From the NCBI RefSeq assembly GCF_023169965.1, contig NZ_AP025592.1:2170001-2234000 (forward strand): DNA of 64,000 bases, given 5' to 3'. This document shows positions 48,309 through 61,431 of this stretch, one piece after another. Position 1 is the first letter of the stretch. Each line of letters begins with the position of its first letter. Below the pieces are notes generated by a model, which saw nothing but the letters and a program-made list of their open reading frames with translations, was not told the DNA's origin and ran no database searches. The position numbers and the translations under genes were made by a program. The DNA is from Anaeromyxobacter paludicola (GTDB lineage: Bacteria; Myxococcota; Myxococcia; Myxococcales; Anaeromyxobacteraceae).

Positions 48309-49118
48309 ATGTCCTCCTCCTGGCTCGCCGCCGCCGTCCAGATGACCTCCGGCCCCGACCGCCGCCGGAACCTCGACACCGCGCTCCGGCTCGCGGGGGA
48401 GGCGGCCGACCTCGGCGCGCGGCTCGTGGCGCTGCCCGAGAACTTCGCCTTCATGGGTCCCGAGCAGGAGCGGATCGCCGGGGCCGAGCCGGTGGACGGC
48501 CCCACCGTCGCCGCGCTCCAGGAGCTGGCGCGGCGACGCCGCGTCTTCGTGCTCGCGGGCTCGATCGCCGAGCGGGTGGACGCCCCCGGCAAGACCGCCA
48601 ACACCAGCGTGCTCGTCGCCGACGACGGCGCCGTCGCGGCGGTCTACCGCAAGATCCACCTCTTCGACGTGAACATCCCCGACGGCGCCCGCTACGCGGA
48701 ATCGGAGACCGTGGTGCCGGGCGACCGGCCGGTGCTCGCCGAGACCGCGCTGGGGCGGATCGGGCTCACGGTCTGCTACGACCTGCGCTTCCCCGAGCTC
48801 TACCGGGCGCTCTCGGCGATGGGGGCCGAGGTGCTCACGGTGCCGGCCGCGTTCACGCTCTTCACCGGCAAGGACCACTGGGAGCCCCTGCTCCGCGCCC
48901 GGGCCATCGAGAACCTCGCCTACGTGCTCGCGCCGGCGCAGGTGGGGCGCCACTCCCCCACGCGCGTCACCTACGGCAACGCCATGATCGTGGATCCGTG
49001 GGGCGTGGTGCTGGCGCGCTGCCCCGACGGCGAGGGGGTGTGCGTCGCCCGGGTCAGCCGCGAGCGGCTCCTGCGGGTTCGGGCGGAGCTGCCCTCGCTC
49101 CAGCACCGGCGGCTGTGA
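48309..49118 (+). CDS. Carbon-nitrogen hydrolase (nitrilase superfamily, omega-amidase/Nit type)
   Basis: A 269-residue enzyme of the nitrilase superfamily. The catalytic triad is visible: Glu in LVALPENFAF (about residue 44), Lys in VYRKIHLFDV (about 117) and Cys in LTVCYDLRFPELYR (about 158). The context CYDLRFPELYR and IPDGARYAESETV are typical of the Nit1/Nit2 branch, which hydrolyses deaminated glutathione or omega-amides such as 2-oxoglutaramate. GAGGTGAG precedes the ATG. The last 65 bases overlap tail to tail with the permease gene on the opposite strand. Deaminated-glutathione repair or omega-amidase activity are the likely choices. Confidence 0.88.
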   Translation: MSSSWLAAAVQMTSGPDRRRNLDTALRLAGEAADLGARLVALPENFAFMGPEQERIAGAEPVDGPTVAALQELARRRRVFVLAGSIAERVDAPGKTANTSVLVADDGAVAAVYRKIHLFDVNIPDGARYAESETVVPGDRPVLAETALGRIGLTVCYDLRFPELYRALSAMGAEVLTVPAAFTLFTGKDHWEPLLRARAIENLAYVLAPAQVGRHSPTRVTYGNAMIVDPWGVVLARCPDGEGVCVARVSRERLLRVRAELPSLQHRRL

Positions 49119-51078
49119 CCGGCTCCTGCTGGAGGATCCGGACCGGCAGCACCACCGCGTTGAGCCCGGCGAACTGCAGCCGCCGCTGCAGCTCGTAGGC
49201 GGTGTCGTTGTGCAGGAGGCGCTGGTACCAGCGCTCGCGCTCGAAGATGAGCTTCCCGGCGAAGAAGACGGCGCGGTGGAACTCGCCGGCGATGGCGACG
49301 CAGAGCGACTCCGCCTCGCCGACCGCCTCGACGCCCACCGACATCCGCCAGCCGGCGGTCATCCCGAGCCGGCGGGCCAGCCCGGCGTAGCGCTGCAGGC
49401 TCTCCTCGGTGCGGCGGCGCACCTCCTCGACCTCCTCCACCCCCTTCATGCTGGCGGAGTCGATGACGCCCACCGACACGAAGAGCACCTGCCGGTACTG
49501 GTTCGGGAAGACGCGCTGCACCGAGAGGAGCTGGTGGATGCCGAGGCCGCCGTAGCCCCCCACCAGCAGCACCGCGGTGGGCTGCCTCGGGTCGAGCGGC
49601 TGCTCCTCGCGGGCGGGGAAGGCCGGCAGCGCCTCCATCACCTCGTCGAGCCGCCGCAGGTTGTGCTGCACCGACTCGTAGTGGCGCCGGATGAGCAGGC
49701 AGAGGCCGATGAGCAGGCTCGTGACCACGAGCGTGATCGAGCCGCCCACCGCGAACTTCTCGAGGATGCTCACCACCAGGATCGAGAGGCAGAGCACCAG
49801 GCCGATGAGGTGGATGAGGATGTGCCGCTTCCAGTCCGGGTACCGCGCCCGCTCGCGGATCCAGTAGCGCACCATCCCGAGCTCGGAGAGCGAGAAGGTG
49901 AGGAACACGTTGATGGAGTACATGAGCACGAGCGTCGAGGTGTCGCCGCGCGTGTAGAGCAGGGTCAGGGCCGAGCAGGCCGAGATGAGGACGATGCCGT
50001 CCTGCATCGAGAGCCGGTCGGAGAGGAGCGCGAAGCGCCGGGGCAGCCAGCGGTCGTTGGCCATGTTGGCCATCACGCGCGGGCCGTCGATGAAGCCGGC
50101 CTGCGCCGCCACGAAGAGGAGCGCCGTCTCCGCCGCCAGCGTGAGCCACACGAACGCCTGGCCCGGCGTGCCCCACCCGCCGGTCAGCCGCTCCACCAGC
50201 ACGGCGTTCATGGTCTTGCCCTCCACCGGGGAGGCGTGGACGAGGAGGTAGCCCAGGGTGATGCCGCCGGCGGTGAGCGCCAGGGAGAGCGCCATGAGCA
50301 CCATGGTCCGCTGCGCGGTCTGCACCTTCGGCTCGCGCATGATCTGGAGGCCGTTCGAGACCGCCTCGATGCCGGTGTAGGTCCCGGCGCCCATGGAGTA
50401 GGCGCGCAGGAAGAGGGCGGCCATCCCGCCGAGGCCCAGGGTGGCGAGCCCGCTCGAGAAGCCGTGGCGCACCTCGCCGGCCACGGCGGGCAGCTCACCG
50501 GCGCGGAGGAACAGCGCGCCGCCGATGAGCAGCACGTGGGTCACGAGGAAGACCACGAAGATCGGCGCGAGCGCGGTGACCGACTCCTTGATGCCCCGCA
50601 GGTTGAGCAGCATGAGGAGGGCGATGGCGCCGAACTCGATGGGGAGCTTGGCCCAGTGCCACTGCGGCGGCAGGAAGCTGAAGGTGGCGTCGGCCGCGGC
50701 CGCGATCGAGGTGCTGATGGTGAGGACGTAGTCCACGAGCAGCGCCGAGCCCGAGACCACGCCGAAGCGCGGGCCGAGCAGCTTCGACGCCACCACGTAC
50801 CCGCCGCCGCCGAACGGGAAGTGCTCGACGATGCGCGAGTAGGCGTAGGAGATGATGAAGACGGTGAACGCGGTGGCGAGCGCCAGCCCGACCGCGAGGT
50901 AGTGGTGCTGCCCGAGCGCGCGGAACGACTCGTCGGGGCCGTACGACGAGGAGGACAGCCCGTCGGCGCCCAGCCCCACCCAGGCCAGGAACGCCACCAG
51001 CGAGATGTGGTGGTAGGTCTTCGGGTCGGAGACGTCGCGGGGGGCGCCGAACAGGAGGTGCTTCAGGCGAGGGGGCAT
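49054..51078 (-). CDS. APC-superfamily permease, KimA/KUP-like, probable potassium importer
   Basis: A 674-residue membrane protein with about twelve helices (residues 20-430) and a cytoplasmic C-terminal domain. The N-terminal GADGLSSSSYGPDESFRALG, IVEHFPFGGGGYVVASKLLG and LLNLRGIKESVTALAPIFVV are hallmarks of the KimA-like branch of the KUP/APC superfamily. The C-terminal 200 residues (AVLLVGGYGGLGIHQLLSVQ ... FHRAVFFAGKLIFERERWYQ) resemble the USP-like domain of KimA, which responds to c-di-AMP. Its setting next to a Kdp system supports a potassium role. It is divergent from the NtrC-type regulator with a shared 162-base region. Substrate is inferred; amino-acid transport is an alternative. 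Confidence 0.68.
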   Translation of the reverse strand: MPPRLKHLLFGAPRDVSDPKTYHHISLVAFLAWVGLGADGLSSSSYGPDESFRALGQHHYLAVGLALATAFTVFIISYAYSRIVEHFPFGGGGYVVASKLLGPRFGVVSGSALLVDYVLTISTSIAAAADATFSFLPPQWHWAKLPIEFGAIALLMLLNLRGIKESVTALAPIFVVFLVTHVLLIGGALFLRAGELPAVAGEVRHGFSSGLATLGLGGMAALFLRAYSMGAGTYTGIEAVSNGLQIMREPKVQTAQRTMVLMALSLALTAGGITLGYLLVHASPVEGKTMNAVLVERLTGGWGTPGQAFVWLTLAAETALLFVAAQAGFIDGPRVMANMANDRWLPRRFALLSDRLSMQDGIVLISACSALTLLYTRGDTSTLVLMYSINVFLTFSLSELGMVRYWIRERARYPDWKRHILIHLIGLVLCLSILVVSILEKFAVGGSITLVVTSLLIGLCLLIRRHYESVQHNLRRLDEVMEALPAFPAREEQPLDPRQPTAVLLVGGYGGLGIHQLLSVQRVFPNQYRQVLFVSVGVIDSASMKGVEEVEEVRRRTEESLQRYAGLARRLGMTAGWRMSVGVEAVGEAESLCVAIAGEFHRAVFFAGKLIFERERWYQRLLHNDTAYELQRRLQFAGLNAVVLPVRILQQEPVTAAGAGARAAPPEPAGAARG

Positions 51079-51180
51079 GCGGCCTCGGGAGCGGGGAGCG
51101 GCCCGTCCGGTGCAGGGTGCGTGCCGCAGGAGCCCGCGGCCTCGTTTCGGGCCCAGGGAGACGCCATGAGCAGCGCCCCA

Positions 51181-51196
51181 CCTTGCGTTTTGCAGG
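51181..51196. promoter_or_regulatory. CCTTGC-N5-GCAgg operator-like site before the NtrC-type regulator
   Basis: CCTTGCGTTTTGCAGG lies 44 bases upstream of the regulator's ATG and about 100 bases upstream of the divergent permease. With its flank it matches the kdp upstream site (61758-61774) at CACCTTGCG plus TGCA after three bases. Likely a binding site of the regulator or of another potassium-responsive factor. Confidence 0.45.
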
Positions 51197-51240
51197 ATCC
51201 ACCCCGGCGCGGTACTGCATGCGGCAGCGATGGAGCACCG

Positions 51241-52599
51241 ATGACCGAGCCCCAGCAGGCCACCTCCCTCCGGGTGCTCGTGGCCGACGACGAGCGGAAC
51301 ATCCGCGCCACCCTCGCCATCTGCCTCGAGGGGCTCGGCTGCGCCGTGCGCCAGGCCGCGAGCGGCGACGCCGCCCTGGAGGCGCTGCGGCAGGAGCCGA
51401 TCGACCTCGCCTTCCTCGACCTCCGGCTCGGCGCCGAGAGCGGCCTCGACCTCCTGCCCCGGCTGCTCGCCGAGCGCCCCGGGCTCGACGTGGTGATCAT
51501 CACCGCCTACGCCACCTTCGACACCGCGGTCGAGGCGGTGCGCCGCGGCGCCCGCGACTACCTGCCGAAGCCGTTCACCCCGGCGCAGATCCGCGAGGTG
51601 GTGCAGCGCGTCTCGCACCGGCGGGCGCTCGAGCGCCGCCTGCTCGACCTCGAGGCGCGGCTCGCGGAGGCGGCCCCTGAGGCCACCCTCGAGACCGCCT
51701 CGCCGAAGATGCGCGCCGCGCTCGACCTGCTCTCGCGCGCCGCGGCCTCGGAGGCGGCGGTGCTGCTGCGCGGCGAGAACGGCACCGGGAAGGGCGTCCT
51801 GGCCCGGGCGCTGCACGCCCTCTCCCCGCGGCGGGAGCGGCCCTTCGTCACCGTGAACTGCCCCACCCTCTCCGAGGAGCTGCTCGCGAGCGAGCTCTTC
51901 GGCCACGCCCGCGGCGCCTTCACCGGCGCGGTGCGCGACCAGCCCGGCCGCGTGGAGGCGGCCGAGGGCGGCACCGTGTTCCTCGACGAGATCTCCGAGA
52001 TCCCGCCCACGCTCCAGGCGAAGCTGCTCCGGTTCCTGCAGGAGAAGCGGTTCGAGCGGGTGGGCGAGAACCGGACCCGGGCGGCCGACGTCCGCATCGT
52101 GGCCGCCACCAACCGAGACCTCCAGGCCGAGGTGAAGGCCGGCCGCTTCCGGGAGGACCTGCTCTACCGGCTCGACGTGGTGGAGCTCGTGGTGCCGCCG
52201 CTGCGCGAGCGCCCGGAGGACCTCCTGCCGCTGGCGCGCCGCTTCGTGGCCTTCTTCGCGCGGGCCGAGGGGCGGCCCACGCCCGAGCTCTCGCCGGCGG
52301 CCGAGAAGGCCCTCTCCGCCTACGCCTGGCCCGGGAACGTGCGCGAGCTGCGCAACGCCATCGAGCGCGCCCTCATCGTCTCGCCGGGGCAGGTGCTCGA
52401 GCCGGAGAGCTTCCCGGAGCGGATCGCCGGGCACGCCGCGCCGGCGCCCGCGCTGGGCGGCGACTTCACCGCCGAGGAGGTCGAGCGGGAGCACGTCCTG
52501 CGCGTGCTGGCCCGCGCGCCGTCGCAGGAGGAGGCGGCCCGCATCCTGGGGCTCGACGCCTCCACGCTCTGGCGCAAGCGGAAGAAGTGGGGGCGGTAG
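51241..52599 (+). CDS. NtrC-family response regulator (receiver, sigma-54 AAA+, Fis-type HTH)
   Basis: A 452-residue enhancer-binding protein. The receiver (5-120) has VLVADDERN, acceptor Asp in LAFLDLRLG and KPFTPAQ. The AAA+ domain (about 145-365) has Walker A GENGTGKGVLARALH, GAFTGA at ARGAFTGAVRDQPG (contact with sigma-54), Walker B GGTVFLDEIS, and the arginine-finger region REDLLYRLDVVELVVPPLRE. A short Fis-type helix-turn-helix closes the protein (EEAARILGLDASTLWRKRKK). It is convergent with the leftward kinase gene (25 bases). Together they probably form a two-component pair for the nearby kdp genes, in place of the usual OmpR-type KdpE. ATG has GGAG upstream. Confidence 0.9.
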   Translation: MTEPQQATSLRVLVADDERNIRATLAICLEGLGCAVRQAASGDAALEALRQEPIDLAFLDLRLGAESGLDLLPRLLAERPGLDVVIITAYATFDTAVEAVRRGARDYLPKPFTPAQIREVVQRVSHRRALERRLLDLEARLAEAAPEATLETASPKMRAALDLLSRAAASEAAVLLRGENGTGKGVLARALHALSPRRERPFVTVNCPTLSEELLASELFGHARGAFTGAVRDQPGRVEAAEGGTVFLDEISEIPPTLQAKLLRFLQEKRFERVGENRTRAADVRIVAATNRDLQAEVKAGRFREDLLYRLDVVELVVPPLRERPEDLLPLARRFVAFFARAEGRPTPELSPAAEKALSAYAWPGNVRELRNAIERALIVSPGQVLEPESFPERIAGHAAPAPALGGDFTAEEVEREHVLRVLARAPSQEEAARILGLDASTLWRKRKKWGR

Positions 52600-52624: not shown

Positions 52625-54457
52625 TCAACCCTCTCGAGCGAGCGGCAGGGTGAACCAGAAGGCGGAGCCCTGGCCGGGCTCGCTCTCCACGCCCATCTCG
52701 CCGCCGTGGGCCTGCACGATCTCGCGGGCGATGTAGAGGCCGAGCCCCACGCCGCCGGAGCGGTCGCCCGGCACGCGGAAGAACTTCTCGAAGATGCGCT
52801 CCTGGTGCTCCCGCGGGATGCCCGCGCCGGTGTCCTTGACCTGGAGCCGCGCCAGCCCGTCCTCGGGGGCGACCGAGAGCGCGATGGTCCCGCCCGGCGG
52901 CGTGTAGCGGATGGCGTTCGAGACCAGGTTGCCGAGGATGAGCTGGACGCGCTCGGGGTCGGCGGAGAGCGTCAGCGGCGGCTCGGGGGCCTCCACCGTC
53001 AGCCCGAGCCCGGCCGCCTGCGCCGCCTGGCGCATGGCGCGCGCGGCCTCGTCGAGCAGGGCGGCCGCGCCCACCGGGCGCCGGTGCAGCTCCACCCGGC
53101 CGGCCTGGATCCGGGAGAGGTCCAGCAGGTCGTCCACGATGGTCTGCAGCCGCTCGCAGTCCTCGCGGGCCGCGTGGAGCAGGTCGGCCTGCTTCTCGGT
53201 GAGCGGGCCGACCACCTCCTCGACGCAGAGGTGGATCGCCATGCGGAGCGAGGTGATGGGCGTGCGGAACTCGTGGGCCACGGTGGCGACGAGGTCGTTC
53301 TTGAGCTCGTCGAAGCGCATCAGCCGGGTGACGTCCTGGAGCACCAGCGTGGCGCCGGCCACCGCGCCCTCCTCGGAGTAGAGCGGCGTGGCGCGCGGCA
53401 GGAGCAGGCGGTCGCCCTCCGGCGACTCCACCCGCACCGCCTCCTCGTAGCCCCTCGGCACGTAGGGCCCCTTGCCGCCGGCGACGTGCGCGCGCACCGC
53501 GTCCACCACCGCCCGCAGCGGCGGGGGGAGCCCGGCGAGGGGGCTGCCCGCGGGCGCGGCCGGCGCGAGGCGCAGCACCGTCGAGGCCGCCTCGTTGAGG
53601 TTCACCAGGGCGCCGTCGGTCCCGAGCACCAGCACCGGGTCGGGCAGGCTGTCGATGGCGGCCTGGGCGGCCTGCTGCGCCTGGAGGAGCTCGCCGAGCG
53701 AGCTCGAGCGGTACTGCCCGAGCCGGTCGGCCATGGTGTTGAACTCGCGCGCCAGCTGCGCGATCTCGTCGTTCCCCTCGACCCGCGCCCGCACCTGCAG
53801 GTCCCCCTCGCCGATGCGCCGGACCGAGTGGGTGAGCAGCGAGAGCGGGCGCAGCAGCCGGGCGGTCAGGGTGGCGGTGGCGAAGATCCCGAGGAGCAGC
53901 GCCCCCACGGTGGCGCCGAGGACGAGCTGGTTGTTCCGGTCGGCCTCGCGGCGGGCGCGCTCGCTCTTGCGCAGCATGCCCTCCTGGTTGATCGCGAGCA
54001 CCTCGGCGACGTCGCGGCCGAAGGCGGTGGCGGCGGGCTGCAGCCGCGCCAGGTACAGCCCCGGCCGCTCCGGGGCCGGGGCGGCGCGCAGCGCGGCCTC
54101 GGCGTCGCGCAGCTCCGTCCAGTGCCGGCGGAGCGCCCGCGTCGCCTCGGCCTCGCCGGGCTCGGTGACGTTCCCCTCCTGCACGAGGAGCGCGGCCTCG
54201 CAGCGGCGCGCCGCCTCGGCCCGCCGCTCCGTCGGCTCGCCCGCGCCGCCGAGGGCGGTCGAGAGGGCCGTCCGGTCGAGCTCGGTCGAGGCCGCCGCCA
54301 TCTCCTCGGCGGCCAGCACCGAGCGGTAGTTGTCCTTGAGGATCCCCTGCGAGCTCTGGCCCAGCAGCGCCGTCGTCCGCAGCGTCGTGAGCCCGAGCGC
54401 GAGCAGCACCACCACGAGCGGCGCCTGCGCCAGGAGGAGCTTGGAGCGCAGGGTCAC
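52625..54457 (-). CDS. Membrane sensor histidine kinase coupled to the KdpD N-terminal half
   Basis: A 610-residue kinase. A first helix (about 7-27, LLLAQAPLVVVLLALGLTTL), a helical outer segment (about 30-185) and a second helix (about 190-212, LVLGATVGALLLGIFATATL) are followed by HAMP, a PAS domain (about 275-395) and the kinase core. VATVAHEFRTPITSLRMAIH gives the H-box (near residue 405), with NLVSNAIRYTPPGG and GGVGLGLYIAREIVQAHGG in the ATPase domain. The GTG start overlaps the stop of the KdpD-N gene by 4 bases, so it supplies the kinase half of a split KdpD. It lacks the four-helix KdpD membrane domain, having a chemoreceptor-like sensor instead. Confidence 0.87.
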   Translation of the reverse strand: MTLRSKLLLAQAPLVVVLLALGLTTLRTTALLGQSSQGILKDNYRSVLAAEEMAAASTELDRTALSTALGGAGEPTERRAEAARRCEAALLVQEGNVTEPGEAEATRALRRHWTELRDAEAALRAAPAPERPGLYLARLQPAATAFGRDVAEVLAINQEGMLRKSERARREADRNNQLVLGATVGALLLGIFATATLTARLLRPLSLLTHSVRRIGEGDLQVRARVEGNDEIAQLAREFNTMADRLGQYRSSSLGELLQAQQAAQAAIDSLPDPVLVLGTDGALVNLNEAASTVLRLAPAAPAGSPLAGLPPPLRAVVDAVRAHVAGGKGPYVPRGYEEAVRVESPEGDRLLLPRATPLYSEEGAVAGATLVLQDVTRLMRFDELKNDLVATVAHEFRTPITSLRMAIHLCVEEVVGPLTEKQADLLHAAREDCERLQTIVDDLLDLSRIQAGRVELHRRPVGAAALLDEAARAMRQAAQAAGLGLTVEAPEPPLTLSADPERVQLILGNLVSNAIRYTPPGGTIALSVAPEDGLARLQVKDTGAGIPREHQERIFEKFFRVPGDRSGGVGLGLYIAREIVQAHGGEMGVESEPGQGSAFWFTLPLAREG

Positions 54458-55605
54458 GGCCGCGGCTCCTCGTCCTCGAAGGAGATGACGTGCAGGTCGA
54501 GCCCGGCCGAGCCGGCCAGCAGCCGGCCCAGCACCGAGATCCCGAGGAGCTGGCGCCAGCGCGCCTCGCTCGAGCGGCCGGCGATGAGGTCCGAGACCCC
54601 GTGCGCCCGGGCGAAGTCGAGCAGCGCCGTCACCGGGTCCGACGCCTTGAGCCGCACCACCTCGGCCCCGAGCTCGCGCGCCTTCTCGACGTTGGCGAGC
54701 AGGTGGCGCTGCACCTCGGCGTCGATGCGCGTGGGCCCCTCGCGCGGCGTCTCCACGTAGACCACGTACCAGTCGGTGGCGAGCCGCCCCGCCATGCGCG
54801 AGCCGCGCCGGAGCAGCGTGGCCGCCCGCGGCGGGTCGCTCGACATGCAGACCATCACCTTGCCGGCGCGGCGCTGCGGCTGCTGGCGCGCCTCCCGCGA
54901 GGCGGCGGCGGTCCGGTCGAGGCTCTCGGCCACCTCGCGCAGCGAGAGCTCCCGCAGGGTGGCGAGGTTCCCCTCGCGGAAGAAGTGCTCGAGCGCCCAG
55001 CTCACCTTCTCGGCCGGGTAGATCTTGCCGGCCTTGAGCCGCTCGAGGAGGTCCTCCACCGCGAGGTCGAGGTTCACCACCTGGTCCGCCTGCTCGAGGA
55101 AGGCGTCCGGCACCGTCTCGCGCACGGTGACGCCGGTGTTGCGCGCGATGAGGTCGTTCAGGCTGTCGAGGTGCTGGACGTTGAGCGCGCCGATCACGTT
55201 GATCCCCGCCTCGAGGAGGTCGAGCACGTCCTGCCAGCGCTTGCGGTTCTTGGCGCCCGGCGCGTTGGTGTGCGGGATCTCGTCCACCAGCGCCACCTGG
55301 GGCCGGCGGGCGAGCACCGCCGCCAGATCGAGCTCCTCCACGGTCACGCCGCGGTACTCGAGCTTGCGGCGGGGGACCACCTCGAGGTCGCCGATGAGCT
55401 CGGCGGTCTCGGCGCGGCCGTGGGTCTCGACGAGGGCGCCCACCACGTCCACGCCCCTCCGGCGCAGCGCGTGGGCCTCCTCCAGCATCCGCCACGTCTT
55501 GCCCACGCCGGCGGCGAAGCCGAGGTACAGCTTCAGCCGCCCGCGCCGGCCGCGCTCGACCAGCTCGAGGAAGTCCTGCGGGCTCTTGCGGCGGGGCGGG
55601 TTCAT
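54454..55605 (-). CDS. KdpD N-terminal sensory protein (KdpD and USP domains, no kinase)
   Basis: A 383-residue soluble protein matching the cytoplasmic N-terminal half of KdpD. The Walker-like motif LGFAAGVGKTWRMLEEAHAL is near residue 30, and QVALVDEIPHTNAPGAKNRK near 105 (KdpD has VDELAHTNAPGS). A universal-stress-type domain follows (about 245-375) with KVMVCMSSDPPRAATLLRRG and DLIAGRSSEARWRQLLGISV. In E. coli these domains are fused to four helices and the kinase; here they are separate and are co-translated with the kinase gene through a 4-base overlap. The USP domain of some KdpDs binds c-di-AMP. Assignment to the family is firm. Confidence 0.88.
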   Translation of the reverse strand: MNPPRRKSPQDFLELVERGRRGRLKLYLGFAAGVGKTWRMLEEAHALRRRGVDVVGALVETHGRAETAELIGDLEVVPRRKLEYRGVTVEELDLAAVLARRPQVALVDEIPHTNAPGAKNRKRWQDVLDLLEAGINVIGALNVQHLDSLNDLIARNTGVTVRETVPDAFLEQADQVVNLDLAVEDLLERLKAGKIYPAEKVSWALEHFFREGNLATLRELSLREVAESLDRTAAASREARQQPQRRAGKVMVCMSSDPPRAATLLRRGSRMAGRLATDWYVVYVETPREGPTRIDAEVQRHLLANVEKARELGAEVVRLKASDPVTALLDFARAHGVSDLIAGRSSEARWRQLLGISVLGRLLAGSAGLDLHVISFEDEEPRP

Positions 55606-55727
55606 GGCGTGGCCGGGGCGCCCCGGCCGCTCCCGTCAGTCTGCGCCCCGACCCGCGAGCGGGCAAGCGGGCGCTCGGCCCGGAGCGCTCGCGCGGGGGG
55701 CGTCGGCGCCGGGATCTTCGCGGGCGC

Positions 55728-56906
55728 TCACCCCAGGAGCCCGTCCCGGAGCTGCTCCTCCAGCACCTCCAGGCCGGCGCGGAACCGCTGCGGGTCGAGC
55801 AGCAGCGACACCGCCAGGAACCCGTTGCCGGCGAAGCCGAAGAGGTACCCCGGCAGGACCCTCACCCCGCGGTCGAGCAGCTCCAGGCACAGGGCGTGCT
55901 CGTCCTGCGCGGCGCCGATCTGCAGCACCGCCCAGCGGCCGCCCCCGCCCTGCAGCAGGGTCCACGGGGCCTCCCGCAAGGCGGCGGTCGCGAGCGCGGC
56001 GCGGTTGCGCGAGAGCCGTTCCCGGAGCGCGAGCGCGAAGCGCTCCCGCCGGCCGAGGAGCGCGGGGACGGCCCGTCGCGCCACCGGATCGGGGGCCGGA
56101 CCGGGGACCGCGGCGGCGCGCGCCAGCGCCGCCTCCGCGAGCGCCTCCGGTCCGGCCGCCGCGATCCAGGCGATGTCCGTGCCCGGGTTCCCGCACGCGC
56201 CGGCGAGCGAGCCGAGGTGGAACGCGAGGCACCCCCGCAGCCCGGCGACGCTCGGGCCCGGCGCGAGCGCCTCGTCGGCGCGGCGCTCGTCGGCGACCAG
56301 CGCGGCCTCGGCGCGCCGGCACAGGTCCTCGAGCAGCGCCAGGTCCTCCCGGTCCGGCACGGCGCCGGTGGGCTCGGCCGGGCTGCCCAGCACGACCGCC
56401 CCGGTGCGCCCGGTGATCCCCCGCGCCAGCGCGCGCCGGTCGATGCGCCAGGCGCCGTCGTAGCGGAGCGGGTACGGGCGGGGGCGGACGTGCTCCGGGA
56501 GCTCGAGCGCGAAGGCGGGCACCGGGCAGAGCACCTCCTCCCGCGCCGGATCGGGGCGGGCGGCGGTGACCGCGAGCGCCAGCGCCGCCGCCGGAGAGGC
56601 GGCGAAGCGCACCCGGTCCGGAGACACCGCGGCGCCGCGGCCCGCCAGGTAGCCGGCGACCGCCTCCTGGGCCTCGCGGAGCCCCTCCCAGCGCGGCTCG
56701 GCGCGGGCGGCGTCGAGCACCTCGCGCAGCTCCTCCGGGTCCCAGCGGAGCCCGCACCGGGCGGGATCGTCGTCGGCGAGGTCCAGCAGCGGGCGAGCGC
56801 CCCCGCGGGCCCGCGCCAGCGCCCGGTCGAGCTCCTCCCGACGCGGATCGCGCGCGCCGGCGAGCGGCCCTCCGTGGCCCAGGTCTCCCTCGATGTGCTG
56901 CGCCAT
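55728..56906 (-). CDS. Degenerate aminotransferase-fold protein without lysine
   Basis: A 392-residue protein with the layout of a class I/II aminotransferase: AVAGYLAGRGAAVSPDRVRF then AASPAAALALAVTAA, LGSPAEPTGAVPDREDLALL (the N-P-x-x-P-T-G region), AALVADERRADEAL (the D-E-x-Y region) and AFHLGSLAGACGNPGTDIAW in place of the S-x-S-K-x-x-G segment. The catalytic lysine is replaced, and the whole protein contains no lysine at all, so the PLP Schiff base cannot form. The C-terminal strand GNGFLAVSLLLD also lacks the arginine that holds the substrate carboxylate. GGGAGG precedes the ATG, 2 bases after kdpC. It is likely a non-catalytic partner or regulator within the kdp operon, which is an unusual place for such a protein. 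Confidence 0.7.
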   Translation of the reverse strand: MAQHIEGDLGHGGPLAGARDPRREELDRALARARGGARPLLDLADDDPARCGLRWDPEELREVLDAARAEPRWEGLREAQEAVAGYLAGRGAAVSPDRVRFAASPAAALALAVTAARPDPAREEVLCPVPAFALELPEHVRPRPYPLRYDGAWRIDRRALARGITGRTGAVVLGSPAEPTGAVPDREDLALLEDLCRRAEAALVADERRADEALAPGPSVAGLRGCLAFHLGSLAGACGNPGTDIAWIAAAGPEALAEAALARAAAVPGPAPDPVARRAVPALLGRRERFALALRERLSRNRAALATAALREAPWTLLQGGGGRWAVLQIGAAQDEHALCLELLDRGVRVLPGYLFGFAGNGFLAVSLLLDPQRFRAGLEVLEEQLRDGLLG

Positions 56907-56908
56907 GG

Positions 56909-57640
56909 CTACCTCCCTGCGGCGCCGGGCCCCAGGCGCCGATCCAATTCCAGGTTCAGGAGGAGCACGTTCACGCGCGGCTCCCCGAGCACGCCCAGCG
57001 CCCGCCCCTCGGTCAGGTCGGCCACCAGCGCCCGGATCCGCTCCACCGAGACGCGCCGGGCCGCCGCCACCCGGGGCGCCTGCCAGAGCGCCGCCTCGGG
57101 CGAGAGGTGGGGATCGAGGCCGCTCCCGGACGCGGTGACGAGCTCGACCGGCACCGGCCCGGCGGCCTCCGGGTTCTCCTTCGTGAGCGCCTCGGCCCGC
57201 TGCGCGGCCTGCTCCCGCAGCTTCTTCGAGGTGGGGCCCAGGTTCGAGCCGCCGGAGCTGGCGGCGTCGTAGCCCCGGTCGCCGGCGGCCGACGGGCGCG
57301 GGTGGAAGTACCCGGGCTGCGCGAACGGCTGCGCCAGGAGCTCCGACCCGACCACCTTCCCGCTGGCGTCGGCGGCGAAGCTGCCGGCGGACCGGGCCGG
57401 GAAGAGCCCCCGCGCGATCACGGTCACGGCCAGCGGGTAGGCCAGCCCCGTGAGCACCAGGGTGACGATCGTCGCGCGCACGGCCGGCGCGAGCGCGTCG
57501 CGGAGCGCGGAGCGCCGCGGGCCGGGACCGGTCGCCACGGGGGCCGGCGCGTCCCCCGCCCCGGCCGCGCCGCCGCCCTCGCCGCGCAGCGCGCGCCCGG
57601 CCAGGCGGCCCATCCCGCTCGCATCCCGGGTGATCGCCAT
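56909..57640 (-). CDS. kdpC: Potassium-transporting ATPase subunit KdpC
   Basis: A 243-residue membrane subunit that stabilises the KdpFABC complex. After an unusual 45-residue Ala/Gly/Pro-rich N-terminal extension comes the single membrane helix (about 52-75, ATIVTLVLTGLAYPLAVTVI). The periplasmic domain follows, with VVGSELLAQPFAQPGYFHPR, YDAASSGGSNLGPTSKKLRE and ALWQAPRVAAARRVSVERIR. The N-terminal part is longer than in E. coli KdpC, which has about 190 residues. AGGAGG precedes the ATG. It lies 9 bases after kdpB and 2 bases before the aminotransferase-like gene. Confidence 0.93.
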   Translation of the reverse strand: MAITRDASGMGRLAGRALRGEGGGAAGAGDAPAPVATGPGPRRSALRDALAPAVRATIVTLVLTGLAYPLAVTVIARGLFPARSAGSFAADASGKVVGSELLAQPFAQPGYFHPRPSAAGDRGYDAASSGGSNLGPTSKKLREQAAQRAEALTKENPEAAGPVPVELVTASGSGLDPHLSPEAALWQAPRVAAARRVSVERIRALVADLTEGRALGVLGEPRVNVLLLNLELDRRLGPGAAGR

Positions 57641-57649
57641 GGCGGCCTC

Positions 57650-59707
57650 CTAGACGGCGCCCGCGGCCGCGAGCGCCAGGTCGATGAGCTTGATGCCGGC
57701 GAACGGCGCGACCACGCCGCCCAGGCCGTAGACCAGGAGCGAGCGCCGCAGCACCGCGGCCGCCCCCAGCGGCCGGTAGCGGACTCCCTTCAGCGCCAGG
57801 GGGATGAGCAGCACGATGATGATGGCGTTGAAGATGACCGCCGAGAGGATGGCGCTGAACGGCGAGGCGAGGTGCATGACGTCGAGCGCGCGCAGCTCCG
57901 GGTAGGTGGCCACGAAGAGCGCCGGCAGGATGGCGAAGTACTTGGCCACGTCGTTGGCGATCGAGAAGGTGGTGAGGGTGCCGCGGGTCATGAGGAGCTG
58001 CTTGCCCACCTCGACCACCTCGAGGAGCTTCGTGGGGTTGGAGTCGAGGTCCACCATGTTCCCCGCCTCCTTGGCCGCCTGGGTGCCGGTGTTCATGGCG
58101 ACCCCGACGTCGGCCTGGGCCAGCGCCGGCGCGTCGTTGGTGCCGTCGCCGGTCATGGCCACCAGCTTCCCCCTCGCCTGCTCGGCCTTGATGAGCTTCA
58201 TCTTGGCCTCGGGGGTGGCCTCGGCGAGGAAGTCGTCCACGCCGGCCTCGGCGGCGATGGCGGCCGCGGTGCGCGGGTTGTCGCCGGTGATCATCACCGT
58301 GCGGATCCCCATGGCGCGGAACCGGTCGAACCGCTCCTTGATCCCGCCCTTCACCACGTCCTTCAGGTGGACGATCCCGAGCACCTTGCCGCCGTCGGAG
58401 ACGGCGAGGGGGGTGCCGCCCGAGTCGCCGATCCGGTCGGCGGCCTCCCGCAGCTCGGCCGGGACCCTCCCGCCCAGCGCCTCGACGTGGCGGGCGACCG
58501 CGTCCACCGCCCCCTTGCGCACCACGCGGGCGCCCAGGTCGCAGCCGCTCATCCGGGTCTGCGCGCTGAAGGGGATGAACTGGTGCTCGGCCTCGTGGAC
58601 CGGGCGGCCGCGGAGCCCGTACCGCTCCTTCGCCAGCACCACGATGGAGCGCCCCTCGGGCGTCTCGTCGGCCAGGCTCGCCAGCTGCGCGGCGTCGGCC
58701 AGGTCCTCCACCCGCACGCCGGGCATGGGGAGCAGCGCCGTCGCCATGCGGTTGCCGAGGGTGATGGTGCCGGTCTTGTCGAGGAGCAGCGTGTCCACGT
58801 CGCCCGCCGCCTCCACCGCCCGGCCGCTCATGGCGAGCACGTTCTTGCGCAGCAGCCGGTCCATCCCGGCGATGCCGATGGCGGAGAGGAGCCCGCCGAT
58901 GGTGGTCGGGATGAGGCAGACCAGCAGCGCCACCACGGCCGTCGTCGAGAGCTGGATGCGCGAGTAGAGCCCCAGCGGCACCAGGGTGACGCAGGCGAAG
59001 AGGAACACCAGGGTGAGGCCGGCGAGCAGGATGTCGAGCGCGATCTCGTTGGGGGTCTTCTGCCGGCTGGCGCCCTCGACGAGGGCGATCATCCGGTCGA
59101 GGAAGGACTGGCCCGGATCGGCGGTGATGCGGACCACGATCCGGTCGGAGAGCACCCGCGTGCCGCCGGTGACGGCCGAGCGATCGCCGCCCGACTCGCG
59201 GATCACCGGGGCCGACTCGCCGGTGATGGCCGACTCGTCCACCGAGGCGATGCCCTCCACGATCTCGCCGTCGCCGGGGATGACGTCGCCGGCCTCGGCC
59301 ACCACCCGGTCGCCCTTGCGCAGCGCCGAGGCGTCCACCCGCTCCTCGGCCCCGCCGCTCCTGGGCAGCCGGCGGGCCACGGTCTCGCGCCGCATCTTGC
59401 GGAGCGTGTCGGCCTGCGCCTTTCCCCGCCCCTCCGCCACCGCCTCGGCGAAGTTGGCGAAGATCACGGTGAACCAGAGCCAGAGCGAGACCGAGAGCGT
59501 GAACCAGCCCGGGGCGGCGCCGGCCGGGTGCAGCACCCGGTCGCGCAGCCAGAGCAGCGTGGTGAGCACGCTGCCCACCTCCACCACGAACATCACCGGG
59601 TTCGCGGCCACGTGGCGGGGCGAGAGCTTGCGCAGGCTGGCGAGGGCGGCGGCGCCCAGGAGGTGCGGGTCGAGCAGCGCCAGGCGGCGGGCGTCGGGGG
59701 AGGCCAT
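57650..59707 (-). CDS. kdpB: Potassium-transporting P-type ATPase KdpB
   Basis: A 685-residue catalytic P-type ATPase of the KdpFABC pump. [13 protein letters not shown] is the actuator-domain motif (near residue 155). The phosphorylation site is [20 protein letters not shown] with the acceptor Asp near residue 310. [20 protein letters not shown] forms the hinge, and the six or seven membrane helices include [20 protein letters not shown]. The start at 59707 gives standard length and lies 2 bases after the kdpA stop. The sequence is fully intact and matches family expectations. Confidence 0.97.
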
Positions 59708-59709
59708 GG

Positions 59710-61431
59710 CTAGAGCACCTTTCCGCCGGCCGCGAGGAAGTGCTCCAGGACCGGGCCGAGCGAGAGGGCCGGGAAGAACGTCAGCGCGCCGACGACGACG
59801 ATGACCGAGACCAGGAGCGCGCTGAAGAGCCACCCGTCGGTGGGGAAGGTGCCGAGGCTGGCCGGCACCGCCTTCTTCCCCACCATGGAGCCGGCGATGG
59901 CGAGCGCCGGGATCATCATCAGGAAGCGGCCGACGAGCATGTCGGCGCCGAGGGCGACGTTCCAGAAGCGGGTGTTGGCGTTCAGGCCCGCGAAGGCGGA
60001 GCCGTTGTTCCCGGCGCCGCTGGTGAAGGCGTAGAGCGCCTCGGAGAGCCCGTGGGGGCCCGCGTTGGCGAAGGAGCCCGTGCCGAGGGGCGTCACCACC
60101 GACCAGCCGGTCAGGGTGAGCACGACGAGGGGGAAGACGAGGACGTAGAGCATGGCGAGCTTCATCTCCCGCGCCTCGACCTTCTTCCCGAGGTACTCCG
60201 GCGTCCGCCCGACCATCAGGCCGGCGATGAACACCGTGAGCAGCACCATCACCAGCATCCCGTAGAGCCCGGCGCCGACGCCGCCGAAGATCACCTCGCC
60301 GAGCTGGATGTTCACGAGCGGCACCAGGCCGCCGAGCGGGGTGAAGCTGTCGTGCATGGCGTTCACCGCGCCGCAGGAGGCGTCGGTGGTGGCGGTGGCG
60401 AAGAGGGCGGTGTCGGCGATGCCGAAGCGGGTCTCCTTGCCCTCCAGGTTGCCGGCGGTCTGCGTCACCGCCAGCCCGCGCAGCGCCGGGTTCGGGCCGG
60501 ACTCGGCCCGGTAGAGGACCGCGACCCCCACCGCGAAGAGGAAGGCCATGGCGCCGAACAGCGCCCAGCCCTGCCGCTGGCTCCGGGCCATGCGGCCGTA
60601 GGTCCAGGTCAGCCCGGCGGAGATGGCGAAGATGAGCACCATCTCCACGAAGTTCGAGAGCGGCGTCGGGTTCTCGAAGGGGTGGGCGCCGTTGGCGTTG
60701 AAGAAGCCGCCGCCGTTGGTGCCGAGCATCTTGATCGCCTCCTGCGAGGCGACCGGCCCGAGCGCGACGAGCTGCTTCCCGCCCTCCAGCGTGGTGACCT
60801 CGCGGTACGCGGCGAGCGTCTGTGGCACGCCCGTCGCGACGAGGAAGAGCGCCACCGCCGCGCTGATGGGCAGGAGGACGTAGAGGATGGCCCGGACGAG
60901 ATCGACCCAGAAGTTGCCGAGGGTCTTCGCGCCTTCGGGCCCCGGCTGGCGGGTGAGGCCGCGCGCGACCGCGAGCGCCACCCCGATGCCCACCGCGGCG
61001 GAGGTGAAGTTGTGCCAGGCGAGCCCGGCCATCTGGGTGAGGTACGACACGGTCGTCTCGCCCGCGTAGGACTGCCAGTCGGTGTTGGTCGCGAAGCTCA
61101 CGGCCGTGTTGAACGCCAGGTCGGCCGGCACCGCCGGGAGGTGCTGCGGGTTGAGCGGCAGGAGGTGCTGCGCGCGCAGGATGACGTAGGTGACCAGCAC
61201 GCCGAGCAGGCTGAACAGCACCATCGACGCCGCGTAGCCCACCCAGCCCTGCTCCCGCCGGGGATCGACGCCGCAGAGCCGGAACAGGCCGCGCTCGAGC
61301 GGGCCGAAGAGGCGCGGCGCCGGCTTCTCCTCGGCCTCGAAGACCCGGAACAGGTAGAGCCCGAGCGGCTTCGTGAGCGCCAGGATCACGAGCGCGAACA
61401 GGGCGATCTGCAGCCAGCCGTTGGCGGTCAC
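59710..61431 (-). CDS. kdpA: Potassium-transporting ATPase subunit KdpA
   Basis: A 573-residue channel-like subunit that selects potassium. It has about ten membrane helices with the four pore-loop repeats visible: [22 protein letters not shown] (about 115), [20 protein letters not shown] (about 235), [20 protein letters not shown] (about 345) and [20 protein letters not shown] (about 470). These match the selectivity-filter repeats of KdpA. GTG is the start, 10 bases after the kdpF stop, and the stop is 2 bases before kdpB. Length and motif order are normal. Confidence 0.97.

Follow-up and report, generated by a model that had tools for sequence, protein, structure and literature searches.

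A lysine-free aminotransferase paralogue in the kdp operon of Anaeromyxobacter paludicola is probably a lineage-specific pseudoenzyme

Position of AT* in the kdp operon

The window analysed here, a stretch of 64,000 nucleotides of A. paludicola contig NZ_AP025592.1, contains a kdp operon in which an aminotransferase-like gene, called AT*, lies among the genes of the Kdp pump. The locus raises the question of whether the encoded protein, which has no cofactor lysine, is a part of the Kdp machine, a pseudoenzyme that is merely expressed along with it, or a duplicate in decay. Pfam matches and ORFs establish the order kdpC, AT*, kdpD-N (Table 1). The frame of AT*, located on the minus strand, is unbroken over 392 codons. 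A preliminary description, which carried no strand, had placed the gene 2 bases after kdpC with a ribosome site. Both points are borne out, as 2 nt separate the kdpC stop (56909) from the AT* ATG (56906), and the ATG is preceded by GGGAGG.

Table 1 Features of the kdp locus in the window.
Feature	Coordinates	Strand	Basis
kdpA	59710..61431	-	translation
kdpB (ORF limits; true start probably further downstream)	57650..59833	-	DKTGT and other P-type ATPase motifs in translation
kdpC	56909..57640	-	PF02669, E 3.2e-69
GGGAGG, resembling a ribosome-binding site, closely preceding the AT* ATG at the extreme end of kdpC	56912..56917	-	sequence
AT* (lysine-free aminotransferase-fold paralogue, 392 aa)	55728..56906	-	ORF and translation (ATG at 56906, stop at 55728); PF00155, E 3.3e-17
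Codon 236 (Gly), Schiff-base lysine site in AT*	56199..56201	-	alignment column with K in 30/30 relatives; position calculated by counting codons from 56906
122-bp leader between AT* and kdpD-N	55606..55727	-	local alignment to the gap between kdpC and kdpD in the other genus genome
kdpD-N (KdpD sensor domain and Usp, without kinase)	54454..55605	-	PF02702, E 2.8e-89
Separate HAMP-PAS-HisKA-HATPase histidine kinase	52625..54454	-	Pfam

AT* is a real gene and not a chance ORF, as evidenced by its full-length homology and by a G+C content at the three codon positions (0.87/0.58/0.96) that resembles that of the neighbouring genes. GC3 and GC2 are 0.962 and 0.578, respectively, versus a G+C of 0.85 in the adjacent 122-bp spacer, and the codon periodicity is unbroken over the entire gene. 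The spacer bears a weak similarity to the stretch that separates kdpC from kdpD in the other genus genome (score 66; shuffled sequences reach at most 63 and average 42). Around AT*, only G+C-rich, chance-like repeats were found, and no ends of insertion elements were recognised. A scan of the region for promoters and terminators, which is uninformative at this G+C, found nothing.

AT* is a divergent copy of a conserved aminotransferase

The sole significant Pfam match of AT* is Aminotran_1_2 (PF00155), which scores 63.1 bits against a curated cut-off of 19.7. Judged by this profile, AT* is by descent a class I/II aminotransferase, in agreement with the preliminary description. The best NCBIfam profile corresponds to PLP enzymes of the GntC/capreomycidine synthase (VioD) type (NF041364, E 3e-23; VioD, E 4e-14), but the score of 82 bits is far below the cut-off of 415, and AT* lacks the catalytic lysine of these enzymes.

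An ordinary copy of the family, L002 (C1:4289315-4290424), is present in the same 4.59-Mb genome, about 2 Mb from AT* and away from the kdp genes. The two proteins are 49-51% identical over their full length and have the same length and predicted fold type. L002 retains the cofactor lysine (HLSGLSK) and, in AT* numbering, features Lys236, Lys244, Asn178, Tyr69, Ser235, Phe209, Trp324 and Asp357, whereas AT* differs at these positions.

In a maximum-likelihood tree, AT* lies within the clade of sequences from its taxonomic family (support 100/99), at the end of a branch of 1.39 changes per site, compared with 0.05-0.38 for its clade mates; the tree program flags this as a long branch, and the exact placement is unsure. 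Placing AT* as sister to L002 alone, as expected for a duplication that followed the split of the two genus genomes, is about 11 lnL worse under a codon model. The duplication therefore predates the split of the two sampled genus genomes, or the gene comes from an unsampled relative. Protein searches detected no orthologue of AT* in 147 genomes of the class, and the named bacterial genomes yielded a single distant match, an aminotransferase of a Bryobacterales MAG. The motif of the lysine-free segment, a short degenerate pattern that also matches by chance (its reversed control did so once), occurs at three places outside the window among 195 genomes of the phylum.

Loss of cofactor chemistry

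AT* contains no lysine in 392 residues, and the segment F-H-L-S-G-L-S-K, the family counterpart of the region around K258, reads F-H-L-G-S-L-A-G, as had been described. The expectation that homologues would share this trait does not hold, since K236 and K244 are retained in 30/30 aligned relatives, in which the cofactor-site segment is typically L-S-G-L-S-K. The total absence of lysine is less striking than it may seem because relatives carry only 2-9 lysines each, two of which occupy the invariant sites, both lost in AT*.

The loss extends well beyond the lysine. AT* differs from the family at 32/74 invariant or near-invariant positions, whereas leave-one-out controls lose 0-7. The lost positions include K236 (the Schiff-base lysine), N178, F209, S235, K244, Y69, Y132, S106, E107 and Y109. 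Changes at PLP contacts are K236G, N178E, F209R, S235A, K244D and Y69A, and only D206, the counterpart of Asp222, is kept among the usual contacts, the presumed counterparts of Asn194, Asp222, Tyr225, Ser255, Arg/Lys266 and Tyr70 of aspartate aminotransferase. AT* therefore lacks two hallmarks of an active PLP enzyme, in that the Schiff-base lysine is gone and so are most of the PLP contacts, and the earlier claim of a lost catalytic lysine is reinforced. The substrate arginine, which had also been described as lost, is indeed absent. Lysine-bearing relatives, which read H-L-V-V-S-L-L in the region, equally lack this residue, the substrate carboxylate Arg386 (R386), and its absence is consequently a mark of the family that says nothing on the death of AT*.

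Residues of different types are unequally affected. Invariant Gly and Pro residues are kept at 17/20 positions, invariant polar residues at 10/29 (Fisher p 0.003 and 0.004), which in sequence terms is the pattern predicted for a retained fold that has lost its chemistry. The amino acid composition is also shifted, with more Arg and less Ser.

Selection on the AT* branch

When the AT* branch is given its own omega in a codon model, the estimate is 0.13 (about 0.03 to 0.25 within 2 lnL), and an omega of 1 is worse by 17.6 lnL. The point estimate is rough, as the model lets all sites evolve at one rate and synonymous changes have reached saturation; that neutrality is rejected for the branch as a whole is on firmer ground. 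Codon periodicity and the codon model show that the protein was under selection through most of its history, although selection on AT* is not separable from its long branch because no orthologue was found. A recent death may have followed selection over most of the branch, as a model in which the branch ends in a neutral phase leaves room for neutral change of at most about 0.3 substitutions per codon. The marks of a pseudogene, namely frame-breaking mutations and an omega near 1, are missing from AT*.

AlphaFold2 predicts a confident aminotransferase fold (pLDDT 91.8), and the best PDB chain matches of the model are all aminotransferase-type enzymes. This is weak evidence, and no independent proof that AT* folds, because the alignment used by AlphaFold2 consists of canonical relatives.

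Association with kdp genes across genomes

The proposal that AT* is a transport accessory or sensor finds no support in the distribution of the genes. Among 147 genomes of the class, kdpC is present in 97 and a relative of AT* in 107. The two genes lie side by side, as judged by eye from the listed positions, in 1/97 kdpC-bearing genomes, namely that of the window; neither the location nor the loss of lysine is conserved. The kdpC regions of ten other genomes of the family (one of the same genus and nine others) contain no relative of AT* between kdpC and kdpD, and, with the exception of G009, the gap between the matched ends of kdpC and kdpD-N measures 26-162 bp. The genus is represented by one other genome; there, about 116 bp lead from kdpC to kdpD, and a DNA search beside kdpC detected no trace of AT*. 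In G009 (L048:3476-3886), the gap holds a small, unrelated ORF with 99 codons that shows hydrophobic stretches. Literature searches returned no account of an aminotransferase gene within a kdp operon. On the whole, the preliminary reading is supported for the fold family, the loss of the lysine, which goes together with that of nearly all PLP contacts, the intact frame and the operon-like position, but not for the Kdp role.

Interpretation

We favour, with a probability of about 65%, the view that AT* arose by duplication from a conserved class I/II aminotransferase of myxobacteria and is a lineage-specific pseudoenzyme, fast-diverging and catalytically dead, that rides on kdp expression. The duplication took place within the family clade, and the active-looking original is kept elsewhere in the same genome. 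AT* has lost the lysine and most PLP contacts, with the frame kept intact and coding selection acting along most of the branch. The protein would be translated from the kdp transcript and would adopt fold type I with no PLP bound covalently; any action would presumably be exerted by binding, either of a ligand in the former cofactor pocket or of a protein partner, transamination being lost. The position downstream of kdpC most likely goes back to an insertion specific to this lineage, expressed along with kdp and lying outside the Kdp machine. AT* provides a clean case of an enzyme duplicate without the chemistry, in which the fold is apparently kept and an active-looking copy is available for comparison.

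The main rival to a selected pseudoenzyme is a recently dead passenger, a duplicate that landed between kdpC and kdpD, lost its function and is decaying without a role as a protein, the frame being still open because stops are rare at this G+C. This explanation, which we regard as unlikely but worth serious attention, fits the confinement of AT* to one genome, the cargo carried at the same junction in G009, which indicates that the site takes insertions, the 32 lost invariant positions and the shift of composition from Ser towards Arg. It sits uneasily with 392 codons free of frameshifts and stops, with the intact periodicity, with the rejection of an omega of 1 over the whole branch and with the retention of Gly and Pro residues.

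A dedicated accessory or sensor that binds a metabolite, KdpFABC or KdpD and tunes the pump is an improbable explanation, suggested by the start of AT* 2 nt beyond kdpC, behind a ribosome site, and by its location upstream of kdpD-N; the gene is missing from this position in the ten other family genomes, and none of the remaining 96 genomes of the class that carry kdpC shows the adjacency. The place of a gene in an operon says little about its function when it is seen in one genome. It is hardly more credible that one myxobacterial lineage recruited a lysine-free, PLP-free aminotransferase fold to regulate the Kdp pump by binding a ligand or a protein. Regulation of Kdp by AT* would, if true, add a new type of input to a well-studied pump, but the present evidence does not favour it. 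Fold-type-I aminotransferases dimerise, and a canonical copy is encoded by the same genome; AT* might thus be a regulatory or heterodimer partner of L002. A precedent is the SPT1/LCB1 subunit of serine palmitoyltransferase, a protein of the fold-type-I PLP family that lacks the cofactor lysine (PMC6148460) and pairs with LCB2. SPT1/LCB1 belongs to another family, the alpha-oxoamine synthases, and LCB1 is a required partner of LCB2, whereas AT* is found in one genome and has no known partner. The partnership with L002, proposed by analogy, would be very improbable, as the two genes are far apart and Y69, the likely counterpart of the Y70 that reaches the PLP phosphate of the partner, is replaced by Ala.

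Other features of the locus

KdpD is split over 52625-55605 into a sensor and Usp protein, followed by the HAMP-PAS-HisKA kinase. The kinase gene is faced by an NtrC-type response regulator (receiver, AAA+ and HTH by eye), encoded in the 3' part of the ORF 49210-52599 on the plus strand. KdpE regulators are usually of the OmpR type. Beyond the regulator, the downstream part of the minus-strand ORF 49054-52494 encodes a multi-pass permease of APC-type appearance, which may be another potassium transporter.
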